Shown here: piece by piece, positions 20,123 through 37,462 of the stretch
Position numbering within the stretch: position 1 is the first letter of the stretch
Layout: each line of letters opens with the position of its first letter
NCBI RefSeq assembly: GCF_024979315.1
Contig: NZ_JANLCK010000001.1
Coordinates: 558,001 to 622,000, forward strand
Direction: 5' to 3'
Length of the DNA stretch: 64,000 nt
From: Herbiconiux oxytropis
GTDB lineage: Bacteria > Actinomycetota > Actinomycetes > Actinomycetales > Microbacteriaceae
Made by a program: the position numbers and the translations under genes
The notes under the pieces: generated by a model
What the model was told of the DNA's origin: nothing
Seen by the model: only the letters and a program-made list of their open reading frames with translations
Database searches by the model: none

Positions 20123-23165
<3,043 letters not shown>

Positions 23166-23179
23166 GGGAGGAGAGACTC

Positions 23180-24157
23180 ATGGACTGGGGAAACATCTTC
23201 GGCAACGCCATCGGCGAGATCATCAGCCCGACCACGGCTGCCTACGCTCTCGCGGCCATCGGCCTCGGCGTGCACTTCGGCTACACCGGCCTGCTCAACT
23301 TCGGTCAGGCCGCCTTCCTTCTCATCGGCGCCTACGCCTTCGCGATCCCGACGCTCGCGGGCGCCCCGATCATCGTCGCGGTGCTCTCGGCGATCATCTG
23401 CTCTGTCATCTTCGCCTTCATCCTCGGCATCCCCACGCTGAGGCTCCGGGCCGACTACCTCGCCATCGTCACGATCGCCTCGGCCGAGGTGGTGCGCTAC
23501 GTCGTCACCACCACGGGGCTCACCGACTTCACGGGCGCCGCGAACGGCCTGTCGGGCTTCAAGGGCACCTTCGCCGCCATCAACCCGATCCCCGAGGGCC
23601 GCTACGGCTTCGGTCCGTTCATGTACAACGAATACGACTGGTGGGTGCGCATCGTCGGCTGGACCCTCGTGGTGCTCGCGAGCGTGCTCGTGTTCCTCCT
23701 CATGCGGAGCCCCTGGGGCCGCGTGGTGAAGGGCATCCGCGAAGACGAGGACGCCGTGCGCAGCCTCGGTAAGAACGTCTACAGCTACAAGATGCAGTCG
23801 CTCGTGATCGGTGGTGTCATGGGCTCCGTCGCCGGCATCATCTTCATCCTGCCGAGAGCCGTGCAGCCCGCGAACTACACCACGGGCCTTACGTTCTTCA
23901 TCTGGACGATCATGCTGCTGGGTGGTGCCGCCACCATCTTCGGGCCGATCGTCGGAGCGATGATCTTCTGGGTCGTGCTCTCGCTCACCCAGGGCATCCT
24001 CTACGGTGCCATCGAGTCGGGCGCCCTCGGCTTCATGACCACCACCCAGGCCGGGCAGGTGCGCTTCATCCTGGTGGGTGTCGCGCTCATGCTCCTCGTC
24101 ATCTTCAGACCGCAAGGTATTTTCGGAAACAAGAAGGAGCTGTCCTTCAGTGTCTAA
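23180..24157 (+). CDS. livM: Branched-chain amino-acid ABC transporter permease LivM
   Basis: This 325-residue permease has about nine membrane helices, with the LivM signatures GLLNFGQAAFLLIGAYAFA and the coupling-helix region GRVVKGIREDEDAVRSLG, which docks on the ATPases. GGGGAGGAGAG precedes the ATG at 23180. It is 15 bases behind livH, and its end overlaps livG by eight bases. The protein pairs with LivH to form the transmembrane channel. Confidence 0.94.
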   Translation: MDWGNIFGNAIGEIISPTTAAYALAAIGLGVHFGYTGLLNFGQAAFLLIGAYAFAIPTLAGAPIIVAVLSAIICSVIFAFILGIPTLRLRADYLAIVTIASAEVVRYVVTTTGLTDFTGAANGLSGFKGTFAAINPIPEGRYGFGPFMYNEYDWWVRIVGWTLVVLASVLVFLLMRSPWGRVVKGIREDEDAVRSLGKNVYSYKMQSLVIGGVMGSVAGIIFILPRAVQPANYTTGLTFFIWTIMLLGGAATIFGPIVGAMIFWVVLSLTQGILYGAIESGALGFMTTTQAGQVRFILVGVALMLLVIFRPQGIFGNKKELSFSV

Positions 24158-25103
24158 TCTCGACAAGAACCCCGTCCAGTCGCCTGCCGCCGCCGTCACG
24201 CACCCGCTCGTCAAGGGCACGGTCGAGCCCGGGTGCGCCAAGGTGGATCCCATCGTGATCGCCGATCACGTCACGCGCCAGTTCGGCGGTCTCAAGGCGG
24301 TCGACGTCGACCACCTCGAGATCCCGCGCGGCCAGATCACGGCTCTCATCGGCCCGAACGGCGCCGGCAAGACCACGATGTTCAACCTGCTGACGGGCTT
24401 CGACAAGCCCAACACCGGCACGTGGGAGTTCGACGGCAAGTCGCTCGCGGGTGTCCCGGCGTTCAAGGTCGCCCGCTCCGGCATGGTCCGCACCTTCCAG
24501 CTCACCAAGTCGCTCGGCCGCCTCTCGGTGCTGCAGAACATGCTGCTCGGTGCGACCGGTCAGCGCGGCGAGGGCCTCTTCAGCTCGCTCGTGAAGCCCC
24601 TCTGGCGCCGCCAGGAGGAGGAGAACACGGTTCGCGCCGACGAACTCCTCGCCCGCTTCAAGCTCGATGCCAAGCGCGAGGACTACGCGGCGTCACTCTC
24701 CGGAGGCCAGCGCAAGCTGCTCGAGATGGCGCGCGCGCTCATGTCGAAGCCCGAGCTCATCATGCTCGACGAGCCGATGGCGGGAGTGAACCCCGCTCTC
24801 ACGCAGTCGCTCCTCGGGCACATCAAGAACCTCAAGGCCGACGGCACCTCGGTGCTTTTCGTCGAGCACGACATGCACATGGTGATGCACATCTCGGACT
24901 GGGTGATCGTGATGGCCGAGGGCCGCGTCGTGGCCGAGGGCCCGCCCGAGACCGTCATGAAGGATCCGGCCGTGATCGATGCCTATCTGGGCGCTCATCA
25001 CGACACCGACCTCGGCGACCTCATGGACGACGGCCCCAACCCGGTCGAGGTGGCCCTCGAGGCCGAGCGCAAGGCTCACGACGCCCACAGCGAGGAGAAG
25101 TAG
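24150..25103 (+). CDS. livG: Branched-chain amino-acid ABC transporter ATP-binding protein LivG
   Basis: This 317-residue ATPase starts at the GTG at 24150, which overlaps the livM stop region and has GAAGGAG upstream. Walker A is IGPNGAGKTTMFN, the signature is SLSGGQRKLLEMARAL, and Walker B is LIMLDEPMAGV. The LivG-specific C-terminal AEGPPETVMKDPAVIDAYLG is present. Both ends are longer than usual: about 35 residues before the ABC domain and a 25-residue acidic tail. Confidence 0.94.
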   Translation: MSNLDKNPVQSPAAAVTHPLVKGTVEPGCAKVDPIVIADHVTRQFGGLKAVDVDHLEIPRGQITALIGPNGAGKTTMFNLLTGFDKPNTGTWEFDGKSLAGVPAFKVARSGMVRTFQLTKSLGRLSVLQNMLLGATGQRGEGLFSSLVKPLWRRQEEENTVRADELLARFKLDAKREDYAASLSGGQRKLLEMARALMSKPELIMLDEPMAGVNPALTQSLLGHIKNLKADGTSVLFVEHDMHMVMHISDWVIVMAEGRVVAEGPPETVMKDPAVIDAYLGAHHDTDLGDLMDDGPNPVEVALEAERKAHDAHSEEK

Positions 25104-25108
25104 TCAGC

Positions 25109-25933
25109 ATGAGCGACATCGATCCCAACGAGGTCAACGCCGAGACCAACGAACTCGCTGCCGAGCGCGCTGCGGCGCGCACCGCGGCGCCCACCGACCG
25201 CGGCGACGTGGTGCTGAAGACCGAGAACCTGGTCGGCGGCTACCTCCCCGGCGTCAACATCCTGAACGGCTGCACCATCGAGGCCTACCCGGGTGAGCTG
25301 ATCGGCATCATCGGCCCGAACGGAGCCGGCAAGTCGACGGTGCTGAAGGCGATCTTCGGCCAGATCAAGATCCGCAGCGGCCGCGTCATCCTGAAGGGCG
25401 AGGACATCACGGGCCTGAAGGCCAACAAGCTCGTCACCAAGGGTGTCGGCATGGTGCCCCAGAACAACAACGTCTTCCCGAGCCTCACCATCGAGGAGAA
25501 CCTCGAGATGGGCCTGTTCCAGAAGCCGTCGATCTTCGCCGAGCGGTTCGAGTTCGTCACGACCCTCTTCCCCGAGCTGGGCAAGCGCCGCAAGCAGCGT
25601 GCGGGCTCGCTCTCGGGCGGTGAGCGGCAGATGGTGGCCATGGGCCGCGCGCTCATGATGGAGCCCTCCGTGCTGCTGCTCGACGAGCCCTCCGCCGGTC
25701 TCTCGCCCGTGCGCCAGGACGAGACGTTCATGCGCGTGCACCAGATCAACCGTGCGGGCGTGTCCGTCATCATGGTGGAGCAGAACGCTCGCCGCTGCCT
25801 GCAGATCTGCGATCGCGCCTACGTGCTCGACCAGGGCCGCGACGCGTACACGGGCACCGGCCGTGAGCTCATGAAGGACCCGAAGGTCATCGAGCTCTAC
25901 CTGGGCACCCTGGCCGCCGACCAGGGCCACTAG
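25109..25933 (+). CDS. livF: Branched-chain amino-acid ABC transporter ATP-binding protein LivF
   Basis: This 274-residue ATPase has Walker A IGPNGAGKSTVLK, the signature SLSGGERQMVAMGRAL and Walker B VLLLDEPSAGLSP, and ends GRELMKDPKVIELYLG as LivF proteins do. About 30 charged residues precede the ABC domain. It is the last gene of livHMGF, five bases after livG, and is followed by two strong hairpins. With LivG it powers import of Leu/Ile/Val or related amino acids. Confidence 0.94.
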   Translation: MSDIDPNEVNAETNELAAERAAARTAAPTDRGDVVLKTENLVGGYLPGVNILNGCTIEAYPGELIGIIGPNGAGKSTVLKAIFGQIKIRSGRVILKGEDITGLKANKLVTKGVGMVPQNNNVFPSLTIEENLEMGLFQKPSIFAERFEFVTTLFPELGKRRKQRAGSLSGGERQMVAMGRALMMEPSVLLLDEPSAGLSPVRQDETFMRVHQINRAGVSVIMVEQNARRCLQICDRAYVLDQGRDAYTGTGRELMKDPKVIELYLGTLAADQGH

Positions 25934-25995: not shown

Positions 25996-26032
25996 GAAGG
26001 CCCGGCACCCTCCGAGGAGGGGCCGGGCCTTC
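25996..26032 (-). terminator. Second hairpin, probable terminator of livK
   Basis: GAAGGCCCGGC and GCCGGGCCTTC form an 11-base stem with further CCCTCC/GGAGG pairing inside. It starts 16 bases after the livK stop on the minus strand. Convergent livF and livK therefore each have a hairpin, and both share the core GGCCCGGC. Confidence 0.6.
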
Positions 26033-26047
26033 GGTGTGCGGGGGTGA

Positions 26048-27406
26048 CTACTCCGCGAGCGAGCCGAACTCGACGTTCAGCGGCGAGTAGGTGCTGTCCG
26101 CGCCGTACTGGTAGACACCGATGTACGCCTCGGTCGGGTCACCGTTCTCGTCGAACGTGATCGGGCCGGAGATGCCGTCGTAGTCGATGTCGGTCCCAGC
26201 GGCCAGCAGGTCGGCGCACTCGGCGAAGGTGGTGCACTTGGTGCCACCCTCGGAGACTGCCTGCATGTTCTTCTGGATGGTGGGACCGTCGGTGGCGCCA
26301 CCGGCGACGGCAGCGAGTGCCATCAGGTTGACGGCGTCGTAGGACTCAGCCGCGTAGCTGAAGTCCTTCAGGTCCGGGTTGATGCCGAACAGCTTCGCCT
26401 TGAACGCGTCATCGGCGAGGACACCGGGCAGGGTGCCCTTCGCGCAGTTCAGCACGCCCTCTTCGAAGTCCTCGGAGTAGTCGGCCAGGTTGCCGTCGAC
26501 GAAGTACAGCTTGCTGCCGTCGAAGCCCTTGGTGCCCACGAGCTCGGGGACGATGACCTTGGTCTGGTCGAACGCGATGAGCGCGATCGAGTCGGGGTCC
26601 TCGGCGAGCACGGCGTCGATCTGCGAGGCGAACTGGCTGTCGCCCTCGTTGAACGCCTCGGACGCGACGACGGTGCCGCCGGCGTTCTCGATGGCGGTCG
26701 TGACGTTGGACTCGAGGCCCGAGCCGTAGGCGTCGTTGAGGTAGATGATGCCCACGTTCTCGGCACCGTCGTTGACCATCAGGTTGCCGAGCACGCGGCC
26801 CTGCAGCACGTCGGAGGGAGCGGTGCGGAAGTAGAAGCCGCCGTCGTTGTAGGTCGAGAAGTCGGGCGAGGTGTTCGCCGGCGAGACCTGCACCACCTGG
26901 GCTCCGGTCACCTGGTCGATGAAGGTGAACGAGACACCCGACGACGCTGCTCCCACGATGCCGGAGACGCCCTGGCTGAGCAGGTCGCTGGCGGACTGGG
27001 TGGCGATGTCGGTGGTGGTGTCACCCGAGTCGCGGTGGATGACCTCGGCGTTGCCGCCCAGCACACCGGCGGAGGAGGCGTTGATCTCGGCGATGGCCAG
27101 ATCCACACCCGCGATCTCGGGCGGGCCGAGGTAGGCGAGGCTACCGGTGGTCGGGAGGATCGAGCCGAGCTTCAGCTTGGTCTCGCGCGACTGCGCGGTC
27201 TCGGGCGCTGCCGGGGTGATCTCCGCGGCCGCGGTGGCGGCGTCGGGGCCGCAGACGGCCGCAGCGGCGGTGCTGTCTCCCCCGTCGGTGCTCGGCGTCG
27301 AGGCGCAGGATGCCAGCAGCAGAGCGCCGGCACTGAACGCGGCGACGCCGGCAACGATGGAGAGGGGCTTCGAGCGCGAGGTGGTGACCTTCGCGAATAC
27401 GCTCAT
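26048..27406 (-). CDS. livK: Branched-chain amino-acid ABC transporter substrate-binding lipoprotein
   Basis: This 452-residue lipoprotein has its lipobox LASC at Cys34. The ATG at 27406 has AAGGAG four bases before it. The periplasmic-binding fold type I begins LKLGSILPTTGSLAYLGPP at residue 78. Lobe 2 spans roughly 185-330, and FSYAAESYDAVNLMA is typical of the closing part. It should deliver branched-chain or similar amino acids to LivHMGF. It is convergent to livHMGF and has its own upstream region with a dyad, so its expression can be set separately, allowing the usual excess of binding protein. Confidence 0.92.
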   Translation of the reverse strand: MSVFAKVTTSRSKPLSIVAGVAAFSAGALLLASCASTPSTDGGDSTAAAAVCGPDAATAAAEITPAAPETAQSRETKLKLGSILPTTGSLAYLGPPEIAGVDLAIAEINASSAGVLGGNAEVIHRDSGDTTTDIATQSASDLLSQGVSGIVGAASSGVSFTFIDQVTGAQVVQVSPANTSPDFSTYNDGGFYFRTAPSDVLQGRVLGNLMVNDGAENVGIIYLNDAYGSGLESNVTTAIENAGGTVVASEAFNEGDSQFASQIDAVLAEDPDSIALIAFDQTKVIVPELVGTKGFDGSKLYFVDGNLADYSEDFEEGVLNCAKGTLPGVLADDAFKAKLFGINPDLKDFSYAAESYDAVNLMALAAVAGGATDGPTIQKNMQAVSEGGTKCTTFAECADLLAAGTDIDYDGISGPITFDENGDPTEAYIGVYQYGADSTYSPLNVEFGSLAE

Positions 27407-27503
27407 GGTGCTCCTTATTAGAATGTGTGCAGTTTCGTGGCAGGTTCGAAGAACCGGCCGTGGATTCACGGTAAGCGGTGTTCGGGCCCGGAACAATACA
27501 TTG

Positions 27504-27523
27504 GTGTTACAGCCGTGTAACAC
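27504..27523. promoter_or_regulatory. Dyad GTGTTAC-N6-GTAACAC upstream of livK
   Basis: A perfect 7-base inverted repeat with a six-base spacer lies about 100 bases before the livK start. On the minus strand a -10-like TATTGT lies 18 bases beyond the proximal TGTTAC. The GTTAC-N6-GTAAC core resembles actinobacterial GlnR boxes (GTnAC-n6-GnAAC). Nitrogen control of livK is an inference. Confidence 0.45.
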
Positions 27524-27533
27524 GGCCAAATCG

Positions 27534-28298
27534 TTACCTGTCGGTGACCTGCACGACACCCGTCGACAACTGCCCGGTGACGCCGGTGTAGCGGATGTCG
27601 GACCGCGTCGTGAGCACGTCGAGGCAGGCTCCGTAGGTGGCGCACGAGACCGCTCCGGTCGTGACGGCGGGCAGGAACTGCTGCACCGAGGTGCGCCCGT
27701 CGTCGCCCGCGAGCGCGGCGGCCAGCGCGGTCATGACGACCGCGTCGTAGCTCTCGGCGCCGTACCGGGTGTCGGTGAGGGTGGGGTCGGCCGAGCGCAG
27801 CCGTGCGCTGAACGCCTCGTCGACCGAGATGGGCTCGCCGGTGGCGCCCACCGCGGCGATGCCGCTCGTCGCGGCGGCCTCGGCCAGCGCCGGCGTCACC
27901 CCCTGGGCGTTCGGGCCCACGAGGGCGTCGACGCCGCGGGCATCGAGGGCCGTCACCGACTCGGCGGCTCGCGACGCGGAGGCGTCTCCGGCGTCGGCGT
28001 GCACGAGGTGCACGGGCCCGCCGTTGACACCGCCCACCTGCTGGATGTCGCGCGCGGCGAGCTCCGCACCGGCGAGGGAGGCTGTGCCGAGTGCCGACTC
28101 CGTGCCCGAGAGGGGCACGACGAGCCCGATCAGCAGAGTGCCGTCGCCCGAGGGGATGGGCTGCGCCATCGTGGGGATCGGCGTCGGCGAGGAGGGGGTC
28201 GCCGCGTCGGCCCCGCCGAAGCATCCGGTGAGCACGAGACCGAGGGATGCGGCCAGCACAGCGGCGGTCGAGGCGCGGAGGAGGGCGGTGTGAGTCAT
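27534..28298 (-). CDS. Shortened LivK-like lipoprotein lacking the central lobe
   Basis: This 254-residue protein has lipobox LTGC (Cys26). Residues about 54-155 align with the first lobe of LivK (LIGLVVPLSGTESALG). Residues about 156-245 align with its closing region (DTRYGAESYDAVVMTALAAA). The equivalent of LivK residues about 179-331 is absent. The reading frame is intact and has an ATG start, so this is an in-frame deletion rather than a frameshift. It lies directly upstream of livK in the same direction. It may be a decaying paralogue or an accessory sensor; ligand binding by a normal two-lobe clamp looks impossible. Confidence 0.75.
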   Translation of the reverse strand: MTHTALLRASTAAVLAASLGLVLTGCFGGADAATPSSPTPIPTMAQPIPSGDGTLLIGLVVPLSGTESALGTASLAGAELAARDIQQVGGVNGGPVHLVHADAGDASASRAAESVTALDARGVDALVGPNAQGVTPALAEAAATSGIAAVGATGEPISVDEAFSARLRSADPTLTDTRYGAESYDAVVMTALAAALAGDDGRTSVQQFLPAVTTGAVSCATYGACLDVLTTRSDIRYTGVTGQLSTGVVQVTDR

Positions 28299-28305
28299 GC
28301 TCGCA

Positions 28306-29271
28306 TCACCCTATCGGTCCCTCCACAGCCGTCGAGGCGGCGCCACGCGCGCGCCCGGCGGCACGCACCATGTCGATCACGAGGATGACGAGAGCCACCC
28401 AGACGATGACGAATCCGGCCCAGCGCTCGGGCGGCATGGGCTCGCCGAGCACCACGACGCCGATCACGAACTGGATGACGGGGGCGATGAACTGCACGAG
28501 CCCCACCCAGATCAACGGCAGACGCCTGGCGGCCGCCGCGAACAGCAGGAGGGGCAGAGCCGTGGCCACCCCGGAGAGCACGATGAGCACGCTGTGCCCC
28601 CAGCCCGCGCTGCCGAGCACGATCCCGCCGGGGCCGAACTGGCCGACCAGCACGAGCACCACGACGGCCACGGGCGCGAGCCACGCCGTCTCGAGCGTGA
28701 GCCCGCTCACCGCGTCGACCCGCGGGCCCACGTGCTTCTTGACGAGGCCGTAGGAGCCGAAGGAGCCGGCGAGCACGAGCGCGACCCACGGCACCGAGCC
28801 GTGCCCGAACGCCAGCACGAGCACGGCGATCGCGCTGATCGCGATGGCGACCCACTGCATCCGCCTCAGTCGCTCGTGCAGCACGAGCACTCCGAGCAGC
28901 ACGGTGACGATCGGATTGATGAAGTAGCCGAGCGAGGTCTCGACCACCTGGCCCGCGAGGGTGGCGAGGATGTACGTCTGCCAGTTGATGTAGATCAGCA
29001 CGGCGGCCACGGCCATCAGCCCGAGCAGGCGGCCCTGGCGCGCGATGGCGAGGAACGCGGGCCAGGCCCGCGTCACCGTCAGGAGCAGCGCGCAGAACAC
29101 CAGGGAGAACAGGATGCGCCAGCCGACGATCTCGAAGCCCGAGGCCGGCCGCAGCAGGAGGAAGTAGAGCGGGAAGATCCCCCACAGCGCATAGGCGCCG
29201 ACGGCGTTGAGGAGCCCGGAGCGGAACTTCTCCGACTCGGTGCCTGCGATGGCGAGCGGAGACGGTGGCAC
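28306..29271 (-). CDS. rarD: EamA/RarD family transporter
   Basis: This 321-residue, ten-helix protein of the drug/metabolite transporter superfamily has RarD-specific segments: AYALWGIFPLYFLLL at the first helix, NWQTYILAT, ETSLGYFINPIVTVLLGV and GVATALPLLLFAAAARRLPL. RarD was named for chloramphenicol sensitivity in other bacteria; the natural substrate is unknown. The start drawn is a GTG at 29271 with GGAG upstream. It ends seven bases before the shortened LivK-like gene and could be cotranscribed with it. Confidence 0.9.
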   Translation of the reverse strand: MPPSPLAIAGTESEKFRSGLLNAVGAYALWGIFPLYFLLLRPASGFEIVGWRILFSLVFCALLLTVTRAWPAFLAIARQGRLLGLMAVAAVLIYINWQTYILATLAGQVVETSLGYFINPIVTVLLGVLVLHERLRRMQWVAIAISAIAVLVLAFGHGSVPWVALVLAGSFGSYGLVKKHVGPRVDAVSGLTLETAWLAPVAVVVLVLVGQFGPGGIVLGSAGWGHSVLIVLSGVATALPLLLFAAAARRLPLIWVGLVQFIAPVIQFVIGVVVLGEPMPPERWAGFVIVWVALVILVIDMVRAAGRARGAASTAVEGPIG

Positions 29272-29296
29272 CGCGTCACTCTACTCCGGAACGCGA

Positions 29297-29328
29297 AGAA
29301 CCCGGGCGGCCGAAGCCACCCGGGTTCT
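29297..29328 (-). terminator. Terminator of groES
   Basis: AGAACCCGGG and CCCGGGTTCT form a 10-base stem extended by GGC/GCC around the loop CGAA after one mismatch. It begins 16 bases after the groES stop and fits termination of a monocistronic groES transcript. Confidence 0.7.
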
Positions 29329-29344
29329 CAGAGCGTGAGCTGCG

Positions 29345-29641
29345 TCAGCGCACCACGACAGCGAGCACGTCGCGAGCCGAGAGCACGAGCAGGTCTTCTC
29401 CGCCGTACTTCACCTCGGTTCCGCCGTACTTGGAGTAGATGACCTTATCGCCGACTGCGACGTCGAGCGGAACGCGGTTGCCGTTGTCGTCGATGCGGCC
29501 GGGGCCGACGGCGACGACTTCACCCTCCTGGGGCTTCTCTTTCGCGGTGTCGGGGATGACGAGACCGGAAGCAGTGGTCTGCTCAGCTTCGACCTGCTTG
29601 ATGACGATGCGATCCTCGAGCGGCTTGATGGAGACCGACAC
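29345..29641 (-). CDS. groES: Co-chaperonin GroES
   Basis: This 98-residue protein caps the GroEL folding chamber. The GTG at 29641 is chosen because AAGAGG precedes it and it gives the standard start [15 protein letters not shown]. The mobile loop is [21 protein letters not shown], and the C-terminus is [17 protein letters not shown]. No groEL follows; a hairpin and rarD do. Upstream lie a CIRCE element and a second GCACTC-N9-GAGTGC dyad, pointing to HrcA repression and heat induction. Confidence 0.96.
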
Positions 29642-29678
29642 GGTTGACCTCTTCTTTCTCAGTTTCAAAACGTCTGGG

Positions 29679-29705
29679 TTAGCACCCTCACACCGAGAGT
29701 GCTAA
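29679..29705. promoter_or_regulatory. CIRCE element (HrcA operator) of groES
   Basis: TTAGCACCC, nine bases, GAGTGCTAA matches the CIRCE consensus TTAGCACTC-N9-GAGTGCTAA at 17 of 18 arm positions. It covers the expected transcription start of groES. Confidence 0.92.
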
Positions 29706-29709
29706 TGCG

Positions 29710-29739
29710 AGTTTAGAGGCACCTCTGGCACTCGCGCAA
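29710..29739 (-). promoter_or_regulatory. Candidate groES promoter
   Basis: On the minus strand a TTGCGC (-35, at 29739-29734) is followed after 18 bases by TAAACT (-10, at 29715-29710). The predicted transcription start falls at the edge of the CIRCE element. The -35 lies inside the spacer of the second dyad. Confidence 0.6.
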
Positions 29740-29754
29740 CGTGAGTGCCAGAGG
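29722..29754. promoter_or_regulatory. Second CIRCE-like dyad upstream of groES
   Basis: CCTCTGGCACTC, nine bases, GAGTGCCAGAGG is a perfect 12-base inverted repeat. It shares the inner GCACTC-N9-GAGTGC and the nine-base spacer with CIRCE, but has TGG/CCA instead of TTA/TAA at the outside. It may be a second HrcA site overlapping the -35. Confidence 0.65.
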
Positions 29755-29794
29755 ATGACGCCTCGTTGCGCCAACGCCTTGGTACCGTTGCCGG

Positions 29795-30991
29795 ATGGAC
29801 TCCGCCGAGCTCTCGCACCTCTTCACCGCCGAGGGCCTGAGGCTGGTCGACGAGCTGCCGCCCTATTCCTCCCTCGATCCCGTCGCCCAGGTCTCCGCGC
29901 TCCGGAAGGCCGGTCATCCGCCCGGACTCGTCACCGCCGTGCTCACCCAGGCGCGGCTGCGGGAGCGTGCCGTGACGAAGTTCGGCGACTTCGCCTCGCG
30001 CCTGCTGTACACCCAGGCGGGCCTCGAGCAGGCCACCCGACTGCCGATCGCGGCACTGCACGCCGGTCGCTTCCGGGCCGCCGGGGTGGGCAAGGTGGCC
30101 GACCTCGGCTGCGGGCTCGGCACCGACGCCCTCGCGATCGCCGCCCTCGACATCCCGGTCGTCGCCGTCGAGCTCGACGAGGTCACGGCCGCCGTCGCCG
30201 CTTACAACCTCGCGGCGTTCCCGCACGTCGAGGTCGTGCACGGCGACGCGGAGACCTTCGACCTCGAGGCGGCCGGCGTCGATGCGGTCTATCTCGACCC
30301 CGCGCGCCGTTCGGCGGGCTCGGGCTCGACCACTCGGCTCACGCGACCCGAAGACTACTCCCCCTCGGTCGGCTTCGCGTTCGGCCTCGCCGCCGCTAGG
30401 CCCGTCGGCGTCAAGCTCGGTCCGGGCTTCGACCGGGAGCTCATCCCCTCCGAGGCAGAGGCGCAGTGGGTCTCGGTCGACGGCCAGCTCGTCGAGATGG
30501 GACTCTGGTTCGGCGCTCTCGCCCGCCCGGGCGTCCGCCGGGCCGCCCTCGTGGTCTCCGGAGGCTCCTCCGCCGAGCTCACGGCCGAGGCCGACAGCCC
30601 GGATGTCGAGGTTCGCGAGCTCGGCGACTACCTCTACGAGCCGGACGGTGCGGTCATCCGTGCTCGACTCATCGGTGCCCTCGCAGGGCGGCTCGGCGCC
30701 GGGATGGTCTCCGCCTCGATCGCCTACCTGACCGCCGACACCCTCACACCCACCCCGTTCGCCCGGGCCTTCCGCGTGCTCGAGCGCCTGCCCGCCGGCG
30801 AGGGCGCGCTCAAGAAGGCGCTCCGGGAGCGGCGCATCGGCACTCTCGAGATCAAGAAGCGCGGGATCGACGTCGACCCGGCGTCGCTCCGCACCCGTCT
30901 AGCGCTGAAGGGCCCCGAGTCCGCCACCCTCGTGCTCACCCGCATCGATGGCGCGCATGCTGCGCTGCTCGTCGAGCGGGCTGACGTGTGA
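29795..30991 (+). CDS. Class I SAM-dependent methyltransferase with THUMP-like C-terminal domain
   Basis: This 398-residue protein has SAM motif I VADLGCGLGTDALAIA at about residue 100 and the acidic ribose-contact in AVELDEV. A motif-IV-like YLDPARR is near residue 168. The C-terminal part (about 325-395: AFRVLERLPAGEGALKKALRERRIG) matches the THUMP-like domain found after this methyltransferase in actinobacteria. The substrate is unknown; RNA is likely from the domain set. A TACCGT hexamer six bases before the ATG suggests a leaderless transcript. It is divergent from groES. Confidence 0.85.
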   Translation: MDSAELSHLFTAEGLRLVDELPPYSSLDPVAQVSALRKAGHPPGLVTAVLTQARLRERAVTKFGDFASRLLYTQAGLEQATRLPIAALHAGRFRAAGVGKVADLGCGLGTDALAIAALDIPVVAVELDEVTAAVAAYNLAAFPHVEVVHGDAETFDLEAAGVDAVYLDPARRSAGSGSTTRLTRPEDYSPSVGFAFGLAAARPVGVKLGPGFDRELIPSEAEAQWVSVDGQLVEMGLWFGALARPGVRRAALVVSGGSSAELTAEADSPDVEVRELGDYLYEPDGAVIRARLIGALAGRLGAGMVSASIAYLTADTLTPTPFARAFRVLERLPAGEGALKKALRERRIGTLEIKKRGIDVDPASLRTRLALKGPESATLVLTRIDGAHAALLVERADV

Positions 30992-34329: not shown

Positions 34330-35967
34330 TCAGCGCCAGCGCTCCCCGGTCCCCGTGATCCGCACCGTGCGCGGTTCGACCGGAGCATCGCCCGCCTCCG
34401 CGCCGTCGACATCGGCATCGGTGCCGGCATCGGATCCGCCGCCGGCACCCGCGCCGTGCGGCCGTTCGATGTCGATCGCGAGGAACGACTCGGCGAGCGC
34501 CTCCACGAGCCCTCTGCCCCACTCCACGACCACGACCGATCCGGCGAAGTCGATGTCGAGGTCGTCGAGTTCGAGCGCGCTGCCGAGCCGGTAGGCATCG
34601 ACGTGCACGAGGGCGGGTCCGCCCACGAGCGACGGATGCGTCCGCGCGAGCACGAAGGTGGGGCTCGTCACGGGGCCGCGCACCCCCATCCCCTCCCCGA
34701 GGCCGCGCGTGAAGGTGGTCTTGCCCGCGCCGAGGTCGCCAGAGAGCACGATCACGTCACCGGCGGCGAGAGTCGCTCCGATGCTCCGCCCGAACTCGTG
34801 CATCTCCTCGGGGGTCGCGATCTCCCGCACGGAACCGACCAGCGCATCGGTTGTGTTCAGGTACACCCGCTCGACCCGCGGCCCCACCCGCGCCACGATC
34901 TCGTCGCCGATGGTCTCCGCCCAGCCCGCCCACTCCTCCGCCGTCGGCTCGCCGTCGTCGCCCTCGCCGAACACCACGACCTCGTCGCCCACCTCGACGG
35001 CACCGTCGCCGAGGTCGACCACGAACTGGTCCATCGCGATCCGTCCGGCGATCGGGTACCGGCGGCCGCCGATCCACACCCGGGCGCGGCCCGTGGCGAT
35101 CCGAGGGATGCCGTCGGCATAGCCGAGCGGCACGAGCGCGAGGGTCGACTCGCGCTCGGTGCGGTAGGTGAGCCCGTAGGACACACCGTGGCCGGCCGGC
35201 ACCCGCTTGGTCGACACCACGCGGCTGCGGAGGGTCATCACGGGCCGCAGGCCGAGATCGCGCGCCGACTCGTCGTCGAAGGGCGACACCCCGTAGGCGG
35301 CGATGCCGAAGCGCACGACCCCGAGGCGCGCCTCGGGCATCCGGATGCCCGCCGACGACGCCGCGAGGTGCACGAGCTCGAATCGCGCGCCGAGCTCCTC
35401 CGCCACGGCGACGGCCCGGTGCAGCTTGTCGAGGGCGACACGGTCGTCCTCGGGCGAGGCGTCTGCGAGGTGCGACCAGGCGGCGTGGAGCTTCACGGCG
35501 CCGGCGGCATCGTGCGCGAGCGCGGACCGCACGAGGGCCGGCCAGTCGGCCTCGGTCGAGCCGTTGCGGCTCAGCCCCGTGTCGATCTTGAGGTGCACGC
35601 GCGGGGCGCGGGAGGCGCCGGCGGCCGCGATCGCGTCGAGCTGCCAGACGGCCGAGATGCCGAGGTCGATGTCGGCCTCCGCGGCCTCGCCGAAGAGCGC
35701 GTCCGGATCGTGCATCCAGGCGAAGATGGGCGCGGTGATCCCCGCGGCCCGCAACTCCAGGGCCGCCGGGATGTCGAGCACCGCGAGCGAGGTCGCGCCC
35801 GACTCCAGTGCAGCGCGCGCCATCGGCACCATGCCGTGCCCGTAGGCGTCGGCCTTCACGGCGAGCATCGTGTCGGCCGGCCTCGCGAGAGCCGACAGGG
35901 TGCGCACATTGTGCCGGAAGGCCTCGAGGTCGATCAGGGCCTCGCGATCCGGAGCTGCCCCGCTCAT
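34330..35967 (-). CDS. Fusion of alanine racemase and t6A ATPase TsaE
   Basis: Residues 1-370 of this 545-residue protein are a complete-looking alanine racemase: PLP lysine Lys38 in AVKADAYGHG, Tyr264 in VSYGLTYRT and IAMDQFVVDLG near 309. Residues about 375-545 are TsaE, with Walker A SGDLGAGKTTFTRG at 409-422, TSPTFVLAR and HVDAYRL. A Gly/Asp-rich linker near 505-530 is inserted before the last strand. No stop or start separates the halves. Tandem to it lies a second, stand-alone alr that overlaps its start (ATGA). Alr makes D-Ala for peptidoglycan; TsaE powers t6A synthesis. The domain calls are firm; activity of the racemase half is inferred from its residues. Confidence 0.92.
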   Translation of the reverse strand: MSGAAPDREALIDLEAFRHNVRTLSALARPADTMLAVKADAYGHGMVPMARAALESGATSLAVLDIPAALELRAAGITAPIFAWMHDPDALFGEAAEADIDLGISAVWQLDAIAAAGASRAPRVHLKIDTGLSRNGSTEADWPALVRSALAHDAAGAVKLHAAWSHLADASPEDDRVALDKLHRAVAVAEELGARFELVHLAASSAGIRMPEARLGVVRFGIAAYGVSPFDDESARDLGLRPVMTLRSRVVSTKRVPAGHGVSYGLTYRTERESTLALVPLGYADGIPRIATGRARVWIGGRRYPIAGRIAMDQFVVDLGDGAVEVGDEVVVFGEGDDGEPTAEEWAGWAETIGDEIVARVGPRVERVYLNTTDALVGSVREIATPEEMHEFGRSIGATLAAGDVIVLSGDLGAGKTTFTRGLGEGMGVRGPVTSPTFVLARTHPSLVGGPALVHVDAYRLGSALELDDLDIDFAGSVVVVEWGRGLVEALAESFLAIDIERPHGAGAGGGSDAGTDADVDGAEAGDAPVEPRTVRITGTGERWR

Positions 35968-37103
35968 GCCGTCACCCGCTTCACCCGGCGGCCGAGCCGC
36001 GTCACGATCTCGTAGTTGATGGTCGAGGCGGCCCGCGCCCAGTCGTTGGCCGTGGGCTCGCCCCGTTCTGCGTCGCCGAAGAGCACCACGCGGTCGCCCA
36101 CCTGCGCCTCGTGCTCGCCGAGGTCCACCACGAACTGGTCCATGGCCACTCGGCCCACGATCCGATGCACCTGGTCGCCCACCCGCACGCTGCCGGTGTT
36201 CGAGACGTGCCGCGGGATCCCGTCGGCGTAGCCGAGCGGCACGAGCCCGAGCCAGGTGTCGCGGTCGGTGCGGTAGGTGTAGCCGTAGGAGACCCCGGTG
36301 CCGGCCGCGACCCGCTTGACCGAGAACAGGCGGCTCTCGAGTCTCATCGCGGGCCTCAGGCCGAGCTCGGCGGAGGTCGCGTCGTCGAAAGGCGAGAGCC
36401 CGTAGGCGCCGATGCCCAGCCGCACGAGGTCGAGGCGGGTCTCGGGCAGTCGCAGCGCGCCGGCAGTGGAGGCGAGGTGCCGGATGCCGGGGTCGGCACC
36501 GAGGCTCCGCAGCAGCTGCTCCGCCTCGAGGAAGGCGTCGAGCTGAGCACGGTCCTCCTCGTCATCGGCGTTGGAGAGATGGCTGAAGAGCCCCTCGAGC
36601 CGGATGCGCCCGCTCGCGATCGCATCGCCGGCAGCCTCGAACACGGGCTCCCACTCGGCCTTCTGCAGTCCGTTGCGCCCCAGACCGGTATCGATCTTGA
36701 GGTGCACGAGGGCGGGCCTCGTGGTCGTGCCCGCCTCCACGGCCCGCTCGAGTTGGAGCCGGGTGCTGACGCCCACAGAGATGCCGTGTTCGACGGCCTC
36801 ACCGAACGACGGGTCGTGCCCGTGCAGCCAGGCGAGCACGGGCGCCTGGATGCCGGCTGCCCGCAACGCGAGAGCTTCGTCGACGTCGGCCACGCCGAGC
36901 CGCTCGGCACCACCCTCGAGGGCGGCCCTGGCGGCTGTCAGCGCCCCGTGCCCGTATCCGTCGGCCTTCACGACCGCCATCACGGCGGCCGGAGCCACGA
37001 GAGAGGCGACGTGCGCCACGTTCTCGCGGATCGCGGACGGGTCGACGATCGCGCGGCGGAGTGCCGGGAGCTCCCCCGTTGCGGATGCGTGCGCGTCGCC
37101 CAT
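35964..37103 (-). CDS. alr: Alanine racemase (second copy)
   Basis: This 379-residue PLP enzyme interconverts L- and D-alanine. The PLP lysine is Lys46 in AVVKADGYGHG, the catalytic tyrosine is Tyr273 in GVSYGYTYRT, and VAMDQFVVDLG is conserved. An ATG at 37103 overlaps the acpS stop; a GTG one codon earlier is an alternative. Both racemases keep their active-site residues but clearly differ in sequence, so the duplication is not recent. Confidence 0.95.
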   Translation of the reverse strand: MGDAHASATGELPALRRAIVDPSAIRENVAHVASLVAPAAVMAVVKADGYGHGALTAARAALEGGAERLGVADVDEALALRAAGIQAPVLAWLHGHDPSFGEAVEHGISVGVSTRLQLERAVEAGTTTRPALVHLKIDTGLGRNGLQKAEWEPVFEAAGDAIASGRIRLEGLFSHLSNADDEEDRAQLDAFLEAEQLLRSLGADPGIRHLASTAGALRLPETRLDLVRLGIGAYGLSPFDDATSAELGLRPAMRLESRLFSVKRVAAGTGVSYGYTYRTDRDTWLGLVPLGYADGIPRHVSNTGSVRVGDQVHRIVGRVAMDQFVVDLGEHEAQVGDRVVLFGDAERGEPTANDWARAASTINYEIVTRLGRRVKRVTA

Positions 37104-37462
37104 CACGCCCCGCCCGACTCGGCCACGACGAACGCCATCGCGTGCCCGCCGTCGTGGGTGAGGCTGAGGTGCACGCGGCTCGCGCCGATACCCGCGACGG
37201 CCGCCGCCACACCCCCGGAGAGTGAGAATGCCGGGTTGCGGTGCTCGTCCGAGACCACCTCCATGTCGTGCCAGCGGAACTCGGTCGAGTGCCCCACCGC
37301 CTTGATGAGCGCCTCCTTCGCGGCGAAGCGAGCCGCGAGGGAGCGGACCGGCAGCCCGCGTTCGCCAGGAGCGAACAGGCGATCGCGCAGCCGGGGCGTC
37401 TTCTCGAGGGCGCGCTCGAATCGCGCGACGTCGACGAGATCGACTCCGACTCCGACGATCAC
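37103..37462 (-). CDS. acpS: Holo-[acyl-carrier-protein] synthase
   Basis: This 119-residue trimer-forming enzyme transfers phosphopantetheine from CoA to acyl-carrier protein. It begins [19 protein letters not shown] with the metal-binding Asp8 region, and [17 protein letters not shown] is the second signature. [16 protein letters not shown] closes the fold. The GTG start is six bases downstream of glmS in the same direction, and the end overlaps alr. Confidence 0.95.

Follow-up and report, generated by a model that had tools for sequence, protein, structure and literature searches.

Substrate-binding proteins of the LivJ/LivK type (PF13458, Peripla_BP_6; PDB 4gnr, 2liv and 1usg) consist of two lobes joined by a hinge, which usually clamp the ligand between them. 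Such binding proteins are thought to stem from the duplication of a single-lobed ancestor, an idea that, according to the accessible part of one report, has been tested with laboratory-made lobes (PMC10601554). In that same part, Michel and co-workers describe split lobes of a ribose-binding protein that fold alone without binding ribose, pairing of the lobes restoring binding (PMC10601554). A search of the open-licence literature for a natural single-lobed type I binding protein found none; the matches were partly empty or loose, which makes this weak evidence of absence.

Within the window, the whole 64,000-nucleotide stretch of DNA analysed here (G000:C1:558001-622000, from a 4.1 Mb genome), a short gene encodes a lipoprotein that resembles LivJ/LivK-type proteins in its lobe-1 fold, its lipoprotein export and its locus beside livFGMH, but differs from them in having neither lobe 2 nor an intact ligand motif, so that the usual clamp would be lost. 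With the engineered Thermotoga ribose-binding protein lobes (PMC10601554, PMC9815098), as described in the accessible parts of those reports, it shares a type I binding-protein architecture reduced to one lobe; those lobes are laboratory-made, whereas the short form is natural and under selection, its folding as a lone lobe being a prediction. The features of the locus are the following.

27534..28298, minus strand: predicted single-lobed LivK2 derivative (short form, S), with signal peptide, lipobox, Pro/Thr-rich linker and lobe 1 of a type I substrate-binding protein
28221..28298, minus strand: signal peptide to lipobox Cys26 (LTGC), read by eye from the sequence
28152..28220, minus strand: Pro/Thr/Ser-rich tether, residues 27-49, from the sequence; LivK2 has a similar TPTP-type tether
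27834..28151, minus strand: residues 50-155, lobe-1 strands 1-4 with a degenerate ligand motif, from alignment and model
27819..27833, minus strand: junction at about residues 156-160, site of the ~150-residue gap that removes mainly lobe 2, from alignment
27564..27818, minus strand: residues 161-245, lobe-1 C-terminal helices with ESYDA, DDG and the C-x5-C pair (Cys219, Cys225)
26048..27406, minus strand: livK (LivK1), two-lobed full-length substrate-binding lipoprotein, 452 residues
28306..29271, minus strand: rarD-type EamA transporter, its stop codon 7 bases from the start of the short gene
21870..25933, plus strand: livH, livM, livG and livF, permease and ATPase genes, convergent with livK

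The initial annotation had described a gene that aligns with the first lobe of LivK and then jumps from about LivK residue 178 to 332, and our alignments agree closely: against a congener's LivK, the gap spans residues 177 to 324, and the part beyond it aligns without gaps (short-protein residues 157-245 with LivK 329-417) at a local score of 179, whereas 500 shuffles of the C-part of the short protein averaged 36.5 and peaked at 60. The C-terminal lobe-2 strands of LivK are also gone (strands 355-365 and 371-380 of the LivK model have no counterpart), and the ligand motif is eroded at the left edge of the gap. The signal peptide, lipobox and open frame reported earlier were likewise found: the frame runs from an ATG start over 254 residues, and, read by eye, the signal peptide and lipobox Cys mark the product as a bacterial surface lipoprotein, with Cys26 invariant in all 28 aligned short-form rows. 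A PF13458 match of 50.7 bits, above the cut-off of 31.7, identifies the protein as a type I (HAAT/Liv) substrate-binding protein, with a partial span that covers profile positions 4-138 of 343 only; an NCBIfam search gave no match above cut-off. The arrangement of two lobes and a hinge is missing, as lobe-2 strands are absent from both the alignment and the model.

Our AlphaFold model of residues 50-254 (205 residues, from a 10-row alignment) reached a pLDDT of 84.3 and a pTM of 0.87, and is the only confident one among five short-form models, the others scoring from 71.4 to 61.7. It superposes on LivJ 4gnr with a Z score of 20.9 and 2.2 Å over 171 residues (model residues 4-200), and on E. 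coli LivJ 2liv with a Z score of 18.4 and 2.6 Å over 171 residues; a Foldseek alignment to 4gnr comprises 99 columns, mostly in the first half of the model. Compared with a model of LivK1 (pLDDT 86.8), the short protein lacks everything from strand 123-125 to edge strand 254-259, as well as the two C-terminal strands named above. As modelled, the remainder of the protein is most of lobe 1, which bears on the earlier question of whether the remaining parts fold.

Gene order around the short gene is conserved, running from a methyltransferase gene through groES, rarD, a variable position X and livK to convergent livFGMH and guaB, with X occupied by a short form (211-302 residues), by a full-length LivK2 (410-489 residues) or by nothing. 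All 25 short loci read with their neighbours carry the short form at this one syntenic spot, and in 23 of them (with the receptor gene of L062 cut by a contig end) another receptor gene lies directly 3' on the same strand, the exceptions being L073 in genome G165 and L153 in genome G018. Another receptor gene also follows at each of the 22 LivK2 loci read, cut by a contig end in L090 and of another kind in L091. The short gene usually adjoins livFGMH, which are candidates for cognate permease and ATPase genes; in G165 and G018, both listed as 98% complete, the locus lacks livK and livFGMH and the short gene is kept. Genome-wide searches of these two genomes, which covered LivH and LivK, with LivM, LivG and LivF judged at the locus only, returned best LivH matches of 34% (G165) and 31% (G018) identity; for LivK, the best match was no other than the short gene in G165 and a protein of 28% identity in G018. 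The short protein outlives its neighbouring transporter. It also survives the loss of rarD in G207 and G165, where the best rarD match elsewhere is 26%, ruling out a dependence on RarD. At L032:4718-7587 (Microbacteriaceae bacterium 3FA27C10), two full-length receptors come after the short form, and one of the two is highly divergent (end branch of 1.21 in the first tree below); at L087:7101-9888 (genus g59), the short form precedes two tandem full-length livK copies. An Rfam search of 26000-30000 matched no RNA element, and no promoter- or terminator-like sites were found at 27300-29400, the promoter consensus used being sigma-70 only.

When the same deletion was sought in relatives, it was found in 12 of 16 genomes of the genus (the G014 copy is split over two contigs) and, by our tally, in 41 of 398 genomes of the family. 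Two fragments 89-90% identical to the window's short form occur in a Herbiconiux MAG, the nearest relative, while G003, G004, G006 and G012 have no short form and keep livK, so the gene is dispensable in these four. At the family level, a profile search with 28 short forms (E of 1e-35 or better) matched 92 of the 398 sampled genomes, which by that tally comprise 41 short frames from 14 genera, 50 full-length frames, not all of which are LivK2 (that of G088 is LivK1), and one frame at a contig end (G036). Genera g68, g74, g80 and g84 hold both short and full-length forms at the locus. In a search of 396 genomes sampled from the order (E of 1e-25, up to six candidates scored per genome), no short form outside the family appeared among the matches listed: the listed short frames all belong to family f1, and the frames at the remaining listed places are at least 431 residues long. 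Short forms are retained even in genomes of 1.5-1.8 Mb. Because the same form recurs in many separate assemblies, some of them single-contig, misassembly, a concern of the initial annotation, and chance are ruled out. Its other concern, a full-length second gene in relatives, describes what is seen in other genera, but those genes represent the ancestral LivK2 and not an error.

Short forms and LivK2 share, besides their locus and tether type, a set of marks mostly absent in LivK1, namely GDG before strand 1, Asp124, Asp200 of the DDG motif and C-x-S-[FYW]-G-x-C; LivK2 differs from the short form in having two lobes and a mostly intact ligand motif. Judged by these signatures, LivK2 is the source of the short forms and the ancestral type. 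An origin as a copy of LivK1 was rejected, since short forms carry the LivK2 signatures and group with LivK2 in trees.

How often lobe 2 was lost is less straightforward. In a first tree, which left out L040_S and L041_S, starred branches force two origins, yet an AU test kept a single origin (p 0.433); a second tree, without short rows L037, L072, L073, L040 and L041, the outgroups and most LivK1, again kept it (p 0.556). With congeneric LivK2 added in our fullest tree, in which many branches are weak, one row (L153) is very long and L154 is left out, a single origin was rejected (AU p 0.0151): its best topology needs five changes, its starred branches force two, and the g74 short forms nest inside g74 LivK2 (98/99* and 97/96*). 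A tree of neighbouring genes (52 rows) requires 10 changes between short and full-length forms, a rough upper figure, as this is a quick tree of locus genes and not a species tree, splits g59 and g68, and counts the contig-end L154 as short. The gap edges, compared without L154, lie mostly at LivK 175-183 to 314-327; those of g84 lie at 200-320, and three g68 rows keep extra residues. Since the fullest tree rejects a single origin, genera are mixed and gap edges differ, two or more separate losses of lobe 2 are probable, and their number may be about five. A single ancient loss, its traces later reshuffled by sorting, transfer or gene conversion and with no repeated losses, would fit the two smaller trees and the numerous weak branches in all of them; we regard it as quite unlikely, given its rejection once congeneric LivK2 is included, the nesting within g74 and the differing gap edges of g84 and g68.

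The ligand motif was scored as the Ser in the fifth column of LivK1 GAASSGV (G-x-x-x-S) and the Thr of SPANTSP (S-P-A-x-T), residues that we take to be ligand-binding by their role in LivJ. Counted without L154, both residues are intact in 10/10 LivK1, in 15/22 LivK2 and in 0/31 short rows (30 distinct proteins), among which four keep the Ser only and one the Thr only. Together with the absence of lobe 2, this supports the earlier view that such a remnant would not clamp ligand in the usual way. Broken motifs occur in 7 of 12 LivK2 from genera that also hold short forms and in none of 10 from elsewhere (Fisher p 0.005, in a test that ignores relatedness among non-independent rows and counts L152, a Thr-to-Ser change only, as one of the seven). 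That all seven broken-motif LivK2 come from genera with short forms suggests an order in which decay of the ligand site precedes the loss of lobe 2. The seven proteins, L141, L142, L143, L145, L146, L150 and L152 (the last with the caveat just given), are two-lobed LivK2 with an incomplete motif and represent possible intermediates.

Our favoured reading, which we hold to be somewhat more probable than its negation, is that the short protein is a lobe-1-only surface lipoprotein that is no longer a transport receptor and is kept for a LivK2-type lobe-1 face, probably a protein-binding one. Having descended from LivK2, the full-length second receptor kept by many Microbacteriaceae at the same spot, it would no longer catch amino acids or feed LivHMGF. 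Lobe 1 of LivK2 would carry a second job, most likely the binding of a putative partner protein at the cell surface, and once ligands no longer had to be trapped, repeated excision of lobe 2 close to the border between the lobes would have become possible. The putative binding face comprises Arg83, Asp124, Asp200 and the C-x-S-[FYW]-G-x-C loop, mostly absent in LivK1, and part of it, as placed by topology and not by coordinates, may lie at the lobe-1 pole that is remote from the former ligand cleft. In column and segment counts that left out L154 and L064 (the latter the same protein as L045), Arg83 is conserved in 27/30 short forms, 21/22 LivK2 and 0/10 LivK1, and Asp124 and Asp200 each in 30/30, 22/22 and 1/10. 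All 29 columns conserved at 90% or more in short forms have the majority residue of LivK2, six of them being less conserved in LivK2 itself, and we therefore propose that a partner-binding role began in LivK2. No column conserved in short forms was found with a majority residue unlike that of LivK2, giving no sign of a newly evolved site. The helix just past the junction (residues 160-176; 27771-27821, minus strand) is 45% conserved in short forms, about as in LivK2 (42%) and LivK1 (37%), and is the sole segment of this kind.

The protein might instead be an accessory of the adjacent transporter, with its lobe binding LivK1 or half of LivHM and tuning, or competing with, ligand delivery. Receptors usually contact the permease through both lobes, and the regular position of the short gene directly 5' of another receptor gene on the same strand would suit such a role, as would the restoration of binding when isolated ribose-binding protein lobes fold and pair, as far as the accessible part of that report goes (PMC10601554). 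We nevertheless judge this unlikely: the short gene is kept in G165 and G018 without livK and livFGMH at the locus, four genomes of the genus keep livK without the short gene, and conservation is among the lowest in the segments that flank the former cleft. The initial annotation had offered an accessory or sensor form; a conserved form under selection is borne out, but it need not serve the adjacent transporter, as those same two genomes illustrate, and a sensing role finds no support. Less probable still is a receptor for a new ligand, acting as a single lobe or as a homodimer that forms a new cleft, even though the fold is that of a ligand-binding lobe: the conserved columns all share the LivK2 majority residue, and mean identity in short forms falls to 32% in strand 3-helix 3 and 25% in strand 4, compared with 61% and 50% in LivK2.

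Over 18 short-form pairs, hand-chosen, mostly close and in some cases with dS above 1, where estimates are rough, dN/dS ranged from 0.014 to 0.471, with 0.014-0.110 in five g59 pairs; over both pair sets together it ranged from 0.014 to 0.474 and was below 1 in every pair. Between the window and its nearest relative, the two short-form fragments gave 0.26 and 0.25, compared with 0.16 for LivK1. By these estimates, purifying selection acts on the short gene. Its conservation is below that of LivK1 in six of eight pairs, with identities of 90/89% against 93% in the window's pair and 78% against 98% in g74; the reverse holds in L147/L149 and L061/L087. LivK1 dN/dS across the eight pairs was 0.02-0.77, exceeding that of the short form in L147/L149, L147/L148 and L061/L087, pairs whose LivK1 proteins share only 46-51% identity and are possibly not orthologues. 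Neither a dN/dS near 1 nor broken frames, as expected of a pseudogene, were found, in-match stop codons checked in G352, G092 and G254 being all terminal ones. A recently broken, decaying pseudogene would accord with the lower conservation relative to LivK1 and the patchy loss within the genus, yet it is very improbable given the dN/dS values, the terminal stops, the Cys pair kept in 31/31 short rows and the family-wide spread; the g59 dN/dS values already refute it. As for the early stage of decay suggested by the initial annotation, dN/dS below 1 throughout the pairs and retention in the 1.5-1.8 Mb genomes speak decisively against it.

More broadly, and as a tentative proposal that falls a little short of probable, the lobe duplication may have been undone repeatedly in Microbacteriaceae: the LivK2 ligand site would decay, lobe 2 would be excised close to the border between the lobes in about five lineages, and the free lobe would be kept for a protein-binding role that LivK2 already had and that does not depend on the transporter. 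Natural single-lobed proteins that can be compared with two-lobed relatives from the same locus, and with possible intermediates, would offer a way to study the loss of ligand capture and the use of a lone lobe, and they caution against taking every truncated receptor gene for a pseudogene.

Elsewhere in the window, LivH (21870-23165, plus strand) has a candidate carboxypeptidase-regulatory-like domain ahead of its permease part (PF13620, 29.5 bits, below the cut-off of 32.3), and the best LivH matches in G021 and G103 likewise lie in long frames, of 480 and 492 residues, compared with 525 in G000. Further along, an alanine racemase-TsaE fusion occupies one frame at 34330-35967 on the minus strand, adjoined by a second alanine racemase gene at 35964-37106 on the same strand.
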